Source: a virus
DNA length: 37,972 nt
IMG/VR virus record: IMGVR_UViG_3300032224_000289
Span: 1 to 37,972 of that record
Strand: one strand, 5' to 3'
Shown: positions 28,070 through 31,136 of the stretch, in pieces
Layout of the letters: every line of letters starts with the position of its first letter
How positions within the stretch are numbered: position 1 is the stretch's first letter
Program-made: the position numbers and the translations under genes
The notes under the pieces: generated by a model
Database searches by the model: none
What the model was told of the DNA's origin: nothing
The model's input: only the letters and a program-made list of their open reading frames with translations

Positions 28070-28152
28070 ATCGGATTATCTAAAGTTGAATCAATTGCAT
28101 CATCAATGGTGCGTGTGTGCTCTTTAGAACAAGAACCACACTCTTTGCACAT
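28066..28152 (-). CDS. 28-aa CxxC microprotein, minus strand
   Basis: Read on the minus strand, ATG at 28152-28150 gives MCKECGSCSKEHTRTIDDAI and ends LDNPI. It has cysteines at positions 2, 5 and 8, and a histidine. Its start overlaps the stop of the upstream minus gene (TAATG), and its stop overlaps the end of the metallophosphoesterase gene. Zinc binding is suggested. The coupling is the main reason to accept it. Confidence 0.5.
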   Translation of the reverse strand: MCKECGSCSKEHTRTIDDAIDSTLDNPI

Positions 28153-28388
28153 TATTCTTCATCTTCAAAATCATCGCCATAATCAGCTGTAATTAGGCGC
28201 ATATTAGATACATCAATTCCGCTTTGTTTGCATTGTTCCATTGCCTCTTTAAATGCAGATAGACAACGATTTGAAATATCATCAATCATGTCTGGGTAAC
28301 CTGCTTCTGTTCCAATTTCCACAGTTAAACCACCACAACGAATTGCCACTTGTGAGTATGCAGGTTTTGGAAGAGGGGTATTAGCCAT
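28152..28388 (-). CDS. Hypothetical minus-strand protein, 78 aa
   Basis: The product begins MANTPLPKPAYSQVAIRCGG, continues TVEIGTEAGYPDMIDDISNR and a helical CLSAFKEAMEQCKQ, then ends in an acidic DYGDDFEDEE. It is one of only two genes on the minus strand and probably starts a separate transcript from the promoter at 28389-28425. Comparable short acidic proteins in phages act as inhibitors or DNA mimics, but nothing here proves that. Confidence 0.7.
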   Translation of the reverse strand: MANTPLPKPAYSQVAIRCGGLTVEIGTEAGYPDMIDDISNRCLSAFKEAMEQCKQSGIDVSNMRLITADYGDDFEDEE

Positions 28389-28425
28389 AGCAGAAGTATA
28401 GGCACGCCTTAGCGTGAGTTAGCAA
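28389..28425 (-). promoter_or_regulatory. Minus-strand promoter with palindromic operator
   Basis: On the minus strand TTGCTA (28425-28420) and TATACT (28400-28395) are 19 bases apart. The start codon lies six bases after the -10 box, so the transcript would be leaderless or nearly so. Between the boxes is the inverted repeat CACGCTAAGGCGTG (28403-28416), well placed for a repressor. Confidence 0.45.
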
Positions 28426-29290
28426 AACCTTGTGCGTGTTGCGTGGAACGAACAAATGCCGACTCTAGCCTTTAAATGCCTATTTAAGCCACTTATGTAC
28501 AAGTGCTATACCTGACTATGCAACGGCGTTTAAAGGTCGCTTAACGGCGTTATAGAGGCGTTAAAAACACCCTCTAAAACCCACTTCGGCGTGGTGTGAT
28601 AGACTCCTCTCATAACTAAATAGTGGTTTTAGAAATCCAGAGAATCCGTTACCCGAGTAATCGGCAGTGGCACTCCCACAACTTCGGCTCAGGAAAGTAA
28701 ATTACCCACACGAACCTAGACAACTAAATAGCAAGACAAGAACTCGGTGAAGGCATCGGCATAACGCGTACGCACCGCACCGCTCTGGCGAGTTTGAGTT
28801 TTGCTATTGACATATAGATGGAACGAATAAATGGCACACACGACAATTACCGTGGCATTTATTTACATGTAACCAGTAACAACACCAAAGTCCGTTACAA
28901 GCCAGCACAATCCGTTAGTCGCTATTAATTACGCTAACAGAATTTAGGCACAGTAACGGTATTCGGCAAGGTAAGCAATTAGCCGATGTAACACTTTTGG
29001 CAGAGTTATGACCCACAAAATAACGGAACGCACGCAACGGATAAGTCCTTGGACAATGTGACAAGAAAAGGCACCCACAGTAGTTGCTAATCAGCGCACT
29101 CCTAATAAAAGTGAAGGACTCAATGGTGAACTATCCATAGAAAGCGGTTTGGCAAACCGCCAGTAATACACACATTACAACAGAGTAATTGTCTAGGGAC
29201 GCACAAATTCCGAAACCACGCTAACACTAAAAGTTAGTGTGGTCTTACGGCATTAGGCACGCCGTAACTGATGATGGAACGCCTTAACTG
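28426..29290. ncRNA. Candidate large structured RNA or origin/regulatory region (no gene)
   Basis: About 0.9 kb has no convincing open frame on either strand, in a genome otherwise nearly fully coding. GC content is visibly higher than in neighbouring genes (lines range up to 58%). Many small inverted repeats are present: 28553-28558/28571-28576, a CCAC-TTCGGC-GTGG hairpin near 28581, 28826-28833/28856-28863, 28963-28967/28982-28986, 29144-29150/29154-29160, 29216-29225/29233-29242 and 29245-29251/29261-29267. CCGTTA/TAACGG words recur at least eight times. The size and lake-phage character recall GOLLD/ROOL-type giant RNAs, but I cannot match a consensus. A replication or packaging locus is the alternative. 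Confidence 0.4.
29216..29267 (+). promoter_or_regulatory. Tandem hairpins before first early gene
   Basis: Two hairpins follow each other closely: 29216-29225/29233-29242 (10 bp with a G·U pair) and 29245-29251/29261-29267 (TTACGGC/GCCGTAA). Together they form the downstream edge of the noncoding region, 37 bases before the first early gene. No T-run follows. They may form a terminal domain of an RNA or a leader. Confidence 0.5.
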
Positions 29291-29304
29291 AAAGGGACAA
29301 ACAA

Positions 29305-29496
29305 ATGGCAATGACAAAAAACGACTACAAATTAATTGCTGCGGTAATTAGTTCAATTAGAGGCAGTAATACAGAGTGCGACCAAATAGCCGACTCATTA
29401 ACTTGGCGGTTTATTGGCGCACTAGAAGCCGAGTACCCACGCTTTAATCGCAACACATTTAAAAATGCGTGTGGCTATCAAGAAATAAACGCATAA
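29305..29496 (+). CDS. First early-operon protein, 63 aa
   Basis: The gene starts with GAAAGGGACAAACAAATG. The product (AMTKNDYKLIAAVISSIRG, SLTWRFIGALEAEYPRFNR) is helical and ends NACGYQEINA. Short proteins of the form NDYxxIAxxI...LA..L....PRFDxxxFxxACG are common in phage early regions, with no known role. It lies immediately after the 0.9-kb noncoding region, so it is likely the first gene read from an early promoter there. Confidence 0.75.
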   Translation: MAMTKNDYKLIAAVISSIRGSNTECDQIADSLTWRFIGALEAEYPRFNRNTFKNACGYQEINA

Positions 29497-29525: not shown

Positions 29526-29541
29526 GTAGGCAGTTTTTTAA
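29526..29541 (+). repeat. 16-base repeat, copy 1
   Basis: GTAGGCAGTTTTTTAA is identical to 30570-30585. Here a weak CTGC...GCAG stem precedes the T-run, so it may be a small attenuator. It lies between two early genes, directly before a GAAAGGGACAAA ribosome binding region. Confidence 0.6.
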
Positions 29542-30409: not shown

Positions 30410-30547
30410 ATGAAAAGCGATTTGGAATGGGTATTAACTAGGTTGCATAGCATTCTTACTACTGATAAAAGCGAAGAAGATAAGTTACGCACAATCACCG
30501 AAGTAGTTAATGCGTGGGCGAACGAAATTAGTTTGCCACTTAATTAA
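30410..30547 (+). CDS. Small helical protein, 45 aa
   Basis: A short frame, MKSDLEWVLTRLHSIL, then EEDKLRTITEVVNAWANEI, follows AGAAAGGGACACA and ends at TAA 30545-30547. It reads as two amphipathic helices and is likely a real gene because of its consensus ribosome binding region and tight spacing. The function is unknown. Confidence 0.6.
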   Translation: MKSDLEWVLTRLHSILTTDKSEEDKLRTITEVVNAWANEISLPLN

Positions 30548-30554
30548 AGGCGAA

Positions 30555-30636
30555 ATAGCACTTGCGGAAGTAGGCAGTTTTTTAATTCCGCAAGTGCTAT
30601 CTAGTGCTAAACGGCACTACTGATGAGCCTCATCAG
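30555..30636 (+). ncRNA. Three-hairpin leader before the 160-aa gene
   Basis: Perfect stems follow one another: 30555-30569/30586-30600 (15 bp, loop GTAGGCAGTTTTTTAA), 30602-30607/30614-30619 (TAGTGC/GCACTA), and 30620-30626/30630-30636 (CTGATGA/TCATCAG). Only one unpaired base separates the first two, and none the second and third. About 80 of the 106 intergenic bases are in these elements, so a structured leader or small RNA is likely. Confidence 0.6.
30570..30585 (+). repeat. 16-base repeat, copy 2, in hairpin loop
   Basis: Same GTAGGCAGTTTTTTAA as at 29526-29541. It fills the entire loop of the 15-bp hairpin 30555-30600. Confidence 0.75.
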
Positions 30637-30653
30637 ATAAGAAGGGACAAAAA

Positions 30654-31136
30654 ATGGAAGCACAAGCAGTACTTACACCAGAACAAATCGCAACAAATGT
30701 AGTAACAGAACTAACGCATGATGAACAAATCAAGGAAATTACACGGTTAATTACCGAACTTGATTATCAAAAGCAAAACTTGGATATTGCTCGCCAAGAC
30801 AGAATGGAAAAAGCAAACAAGATAAATCAAATTCAGCGAGAAGTACGAACCGCCTTCAAAGATAAATTTGATGGTGATAAGAACACAACGGCTGATTTTG
30901 ATATTGAAGAAGCCAATGAGTTACTAGAGTCAATTGGCGCAGATGCACTTACCTTCACTTACTCAGCCACAATCACAGTAACCGCAACAATTACTGGTAT
31001 TGACGCTAGTAGCGAAAAGGAAGCAGAAGAAAAAGCACTTGAAGCGGTATCTCTTCAGTTTGATTCAAGTTCCGCAGGTGATGATGCGGAGATTGATGAT
31101 GAAGAGTACGAAGTTTCAGATATTGAAGAAGAATAA
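30654..31136 (+). CDS. Acidic coiled-coil protein, 160 aa
   Basis: An AGAAGGGACAAAAA site precedes the ATG. Residues 20-70 form a coiled coil (ITRLITELDYQKQNLDIARQ). The middle is β-rich (LTFTYSATITVTATITG), and the last 45 residues are strongly acidic (DDAEIDDEEYEVSDIEEE). The acidic tail might mimic nucleic acid or bind a basic partner. A structured leader stands directly upstream, so expression may be controlled there. Confidence 0.7.
   Translation: MEAQAVLTPEQIATNVVTELTHDEQIKEITRLITELDYQKQNLDIARQDRMEKANKINQIQREVRTAFKDKFDGDKNTTADFDIEEANELLESIGADALTFTYSATITVTATITGIDASSEKEAEEKALEAVSLQFDSSSAGDDAEIDDEEYEVSDIEEE

Follow-up and report, generated by a model that had tools for sequence, protein, structure and literature searches.

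The stretch of DNA analysed here, called the window, is the whole of IMGVR_UViG_3300032224_000289, a record of 37,972 bases from an uncultured virus that encodes a RecT protein, a large terminase and a portal. Positions 28389-29304 form a gap of 916 bp with no open reading frame of at least 60 amino acids wholly inside it. This is by far the largest gap in the window; the runner-up measures 215 bp. A first-pass annotation had described a stretch without a convincing gene at 28426-29290 in a nearly gap-free genome, just before the early genes and opposite divergent genes, and this observation holds. Its bounds lie close to a conserved start at about 28393 and to the end of a ribozyme at about 29289. 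The flanking genes are:

28152..28388, minus strand: divergent 78-aa gene, the boundary of the RNA on the 5' flank and a synteny marker kept in relatives
29305..29496, plus strand: 63-aa gene, the first early gene downstream of the ribozyme HHR1

The GC content was also said to be raised. This is true locally, in that the most GC-rich 50-mer of the genome (66%, starting at 28743) lies inside the gap, but the overall effect is modest: 44.6% over 28426-29290 compared to 39.9% for the whole window, with about 4% of the genome equally or more GC-rich at a segment length of 865 nt. The recurrence of the words CCGTTA and TAACGG is more pronounced. There are six copies where 0.6 are expected, an approximately tenfold excess that was reached in none of 1000 simulated sequences, and the copies at 28892 and 28954 form the two arms of one covarying helix.

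Scans for consensus promoters and terminators gave nothing above chance, and no credible intrinsic terminator was found between the RNA and the early genes. The sequence AAGTRTA is conserved at 28389-28400, just upstream of the start of the divergent gene; on the minus strand it resembles a -10 box beside a leaderless start.

A conserved and covarying noncoding RNA

Relatives were gathered through the exonuclease gene upstream of the gap, which yielded 80 related viral contigs, and extra contigs were added by a search with the ribozyme pattern. About 20 of the 80 have a gap that can be aligned with that of the window for hundreds of bases, with an identity of approximately 66-96%. Conservation of the RNA region extends to more than 20 contigs of related phages, and no open reading frame is common to these homologues. 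Position is kept and conserved blocks are shared in group B (L025, L026, L032 and L035) and group C (L022, L029, L031, L034, L036, L038, L039, L058 and L062). In distant members, L086, L092 and L113 among them, the RNA is reduced to a length of about 0.3-0.6 kb, with an interior that can no longer be aligned, yet the hammerhead still stands ahead of the early genes. The ribozyme is therefore the most conserved part, and in all groups tested HHR1 is the final element ahead of the early genes. Protein genes replace the RNA in L063-L077, L054-L057, L074, L078 and L079, where a hammerhead was not found. Judged from these sequences, the RNA and its hammerhead seem to be gained or lost as a unit.

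A search found no DNA similarity between the window and cultured phages. The exonuclease has its nearest relatives in Streptomyces phage Dagobah and in Actinomycetia phage DSL-LC01, the latter with 46% identity, and the stretch around the exonuclease gene of DSL-LC01 has no hammerhead. A scan of bacterial genomes with the ribozyme pattern gave ten matches, none of which was a proper hammerhead. When a second conserved motif was used as bait, the same clade was returned, together with matches free of the ribozyme motif that were taken as chance.

Substitutions and indels both have a noncoding character. Among the homologues, 235 indels are not multiples of three, against 51 that are. Variability at the three codon positions of the RNA is 0.176, 0.180 and 0.166, with no three-base period; the exonuclease gene in twelve of the same phages gives 0.061, 0.024 and 0.225, a clear excess at the third position. 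The parts of the RNA are:

28393..29244, plus strand: large structured noncoding RNA, recognized by conservation without a common open reading frame and by covariation
28534..28828, plus strand: 5' half, structured and more variable, aligning poorly, its consensus fold partly resolved
28867..29138, plus strand: 3' core domain, recognized by covariation
28872-28875/29124-29127, 28876-28880/29005-29009 and 28884-28891/28993-29001, plus strand: helices of the 3' core
28892-28897/28954-28959 and 28911-28925/28929-28941, plus strand: helices of the 3' core
28960-28970/28979-28990 and 29034-29038/29083-29087, plus strand: helices of the 3' core
29143..29178, plus strand: two small hairpins between the core and the ribozyme

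The 5' end of the RNA would lie between about 28400 and 28540, and the predicted ribozyme cut would form its 3' end. The folding energy is moderately low on both strands (z of -2.7 and -2.1), and it is covariation that supplies the decisive evidence. In the alignment of the 3' domain (23 sequences, 363 columns), 95.7% of 1077 cells are paired, and compensatory changes on both sides are seen in 30 of the 47 predicted pairs. None of 500 shuffles reached any of the measures, a type of test that is inflated by the relatedness of the sequences; when the partner was slid by one to three columns, pairing fell to 32-40%. RNAalifold predicted 193 pairs in group A, 88 of them with double substitutions. 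Covariation is weaker, but visible, in the 5' half, where 13 of 29 predicted pairs have changed on both sides; the helix 28740-28754/28782-28795 is an example. The small hairpins have double changes in three of six pairs (29143-29148/29156-29161) and in three of four (29163-29166/29175-29178). The candidate giant structured RNA of the first-pass annotation is thus conserved, noncoding and strongly covarying on the plus strand. Its terminal hammerhead, and a second one 1.3 kb downstream, had escaped that annotation.

Predicted hammerhead ribozymes in the early operon

The RNA ends, on its 3' side, in an invariant layout: CGAAAC, a hairpin with the loop CACUAAAAG, GUC, a second hairpin, CUGANGA and a short stem, followed in most copies by GCC. 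This is the order of a type II hammerhead. In the window it consists of:

29206..29289, plus strand: HHR1, type II hammerhead, supported by homologues above the RF02276 threshold and by covariation
29208..29215, plus strand: stem II strand UUCC and core GAAA (29212-29215), from sequence and alignment
29215..29243, plus strand: stem III (29215-29225/29233-29243) with loop CACUAAAAG
29244..29245, plus strand: predicted cleavage site GUC^U, positioned from the hammerhead consensus
29245..29267, plus strand: stem I (29245-29251/29261-29267)
29268..29279, plus strand: core CUGAUGA (29268-29274), an extra U (29275) and stem II strand GGAA (29276-29279)

GAAA, CUGANGA and an NUH cleavage triplet are found without exception in all 34 aligned copies, the one in the window among them. 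Where the CUGANGA core does vary, it is at N7, a position at which known hammerheads vary too. Across the 34 distinct copies, stems I and III are paired in all 564 cells and 14 of 17 pairs are doubly changed: 8 of 11 in stem III, which is 100% paired in the 34 sequences, and 6 of the 6 counted in stem I. The table of these pairs includes 44 G-U cells, which would become A-C mismatches if read on the minus strand, so the plus strand is the RNA strand. An RNA from the minus strand, where the folding energy is similar, is rejected on the strength of these G-U pairs and of the directional hammerhead core.

In type II hammerheads, loop I and the tail form a pseudoknot (PMC3088659). In HHR1 its counterpart is AGGC in loop I (29255-29258), complementary to GCCU (29281-29284). 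The interaction is kept across most copies, in the forms UAGGC/GCCUA, UUGGC/GCCAA, UGGC/GCCA and UGGA/UCCA, as read with a descriptor that took some loops too long; a clear pseudoknot is absent from L086, L092 and L113. The CACUAAAAG loop itself (29226-29232) is invariant in 33 of 34 HHR1 copies, while the surrounding stem changes freely, and HHR2 copies are without it. The loop was required by the bait pattern, but it is also present in the copies obtained by way of the exonuclease gene.

The Rfam model Hammerhead_II (RF02276, gathering threshold 37 bits) recognizes the HHR1 copies of L029 (41.8 bits) and L034 (38.9 bits). It misses that of the window because of the one extra U which the window's subclade has between CUGAUGA and stem II (GGAA/UUCC). 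Stem II follows CUGANGA directly, with G10.1-C11.1, in groups B and C and in L037, L098, L106 and L119, the last four of which lack the extra U though they belong to the window's own group. A covariance model built here, R1, finds the window copy at 81.8 bits, a score that is partly by construction, since that copy is in the building alignment. A structural descriptor detected two type II hammerheads in the window and no more, compared to 1 in 200 simulated windows. Both of these, found by R1 and the descriptor, are missed by RF02276, a model that seems too narrow for this phage clade. The window ribozyme is probably active.

The second hammerhead lies ahead of the gene that begins at 30654:

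30546..30641, plus strand: HHR2, second type II hammerhead (model R1 36.8 bits, E 1.8e-9; descriptor)
30601/30602, plus strand: predicted cut AUC^U
30620..30636, plus strand: core CUGAUGA (30620-30626) and complementary anti-core UCAUCAG (30630-30636)

One or two additional hammerheads occur in most relatives with enough downstream sequence, and the HHR2 of L034 (8972-9034) matches RF02276 at 40.4 bits. Of 30 distinct second copies, 27 have an anti-core that pairs with the core over at least 5 nt, and N7 and its partner covary (U:A in 17, C:G in 10). With shuffled tails at most 6 of 30 pair, and HHR1 copies never pair over more than 4 nt. Possible roles of the anti-core are inactivation of the ribozyme, capping of the cleaved mRNA and a response to ribosomes that bind the adjacent Shine-Dalgarno sequence.

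Two further observations were made in this region. L043 (5869-7353) and L052 (5198-6738) each have three hammerheads in one early region, before successive genes. In the window, an exact 16-nt repeat, GTAGGCAGTTTTTTAA, occurs at 29526-29541, in an intergenic hairpin that resembles a terminator, and at 30570-30585, in the stem III loop of HHR2.

Proposed release of the RNA and comparison with known RNAs

The reading that we consider probable is that this is a new family of large structured noncoding phage RNA, about 0.9 kb in the window and 0.3-0.9 kb in relatives, which is co-transcribed with the early operon and freed by hammerhead cleavage. Transcription would proceed rightward from a putative promoter near 28390-28450, with the RNA at the head of the early operon. 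The RNA would fold, and HHR1 at its end would cut at 29244/29245, freeing a standalone RNA whose 3' end is defined and leaving an early mRNA that starts with a short hairpin. HHR2 would then cut the operon again at 30601/30602. A trans-acting RNA is favoured over a processed leader on account of the size and the intricate conserved fold.

The leader is the main rival. The early genes always follow immediately after the RNA, and the same operon carries more hammerheads, as would suit a cis-acting element in antitermination, translation control or timing, with its removal by the hammerhead as part of the control. Hammerheads around phage genes have earlier been proposed to cut long phage transcripts (PMC3088659). 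On this reading, to which we give some weight while thinking it unlikely, the released RNA would have no separate role. The antitermination and leader elements known to us are, however, far smaller than a conserved structure of 0.9 kb, and detachment by a ribozyme is odd for action in cis after transcription. A more elaborate version of the favoured trans-acting RNA is decidedly speculative: a class of giant RNAs cut from the early transcript, perhaps multimeric like GOLLD and ROOL, with the HHR2 anti-core as a switch that responds, for example, to ribosome binding at the Shine-Dalgarno sequence.

The first-pass annotation had named as candidates GOLLD and ROOL, two large RNAs of phages whose function is unknown (PMC12286853), along with HEARO and group I introns. 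None of the four survived the Rfam searches. With Rfam 15, the whole window gave no match at the gathering threshold, and the window element gave, at E up to 10, a single chance-level miRNA match; GOLLD and ROOL models also failed to match the homologue L029 at E up to 10, where the sole credible hit was Hammerhead_II at the 3' end of the RNA. The 3' half of GOLLD is more conserved than the 5' half (PMC12286853). The same trait in this RNA would fit a divergent member of GOLLD or ROOL, as would the similar size, the phage location and the complex fold. Against such membership, which we think very unlikely, are the failure of the models even at E 10, a tRNA and tmRNA search that found none in the window, and a terminal hammerhead that goes unmentioned in PMC12286853.

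GOLLD and ROOL are frequently found near tRNA islands. The RNA is not filed under either, since it fails both the covariance models and the tRNA association. That the hairpins act as DNA, in an origin or packaging site, is hardly credible: an intergenic gap beside a divergent gene would be a suitable place, but a canonical hammerhead with an invariant catalytic core, and pairing that tolerates G-U on one strand only, indicate RNA. The chance of a decayed gene or unstructured spacer with accidental structure is next to nil, for while noncoding sequence, variable length and a z of just -2.7 would be expected of one, covariation far beyond the shuffled and slid controls, conserved single-stranded motifs and the absent codon signal would not.

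To our knowledge, bacteria and phages have so far yielded very few large structured RNAs. The present one adds a family without an Rfam match and with more than 30 distinct ribozyme-bearing copies for covariation. Since the ribozyme would fix its 3' end exactly, the RNA could be made and imaged directly. In the literature consulted, mostly outside subscription journals, we found neither this RNA nor any other giant phage RNA that ends in a hammerhead. The role of phage hammerheads is, as far as we know, a long-standing open question; a concrete use suggested here is the parting of a structural RNA from the mRNA made with it. HHR2, with its covarying anti-core, is a candidate for a natural regulated hammerhead and is testable as such.

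The RNA resembles GOLLD in being large, structured, phage-borne and better conserved in its 3' part. It differs in having no sequence or covariance match and no tRNA nearby, in ending in a hammerhead and in preceding early genes. With ROOL it shares size, structure, phage location and a function yet unknown; it lacks a covariance-model match and a nearby tRNA, and has the terminal hammerhead.

The ribozymes have the features of type II hammerheads (RF02276; PMC3088659): stem order II-III-I, the GAAA/CUGANGA core, a GUC triplet in HHR1, a very short stem II, a loop I/tail pseudoknot and several copies per phage early region. In contrast to these, HHR1 ends a 0.9-kb structured RNA and has the invariant stem III loop CACUAAAAG, the window subclade has an extra U before stem II, and HHR2 has a covarying anti-core. 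As with the clustered phage hammerheads described previously (PMC3088659), there is more than one per transcript, implying cutting into shorter units; here, however, the first unit freed would be a large noncoding RNA rather than an mRNA.
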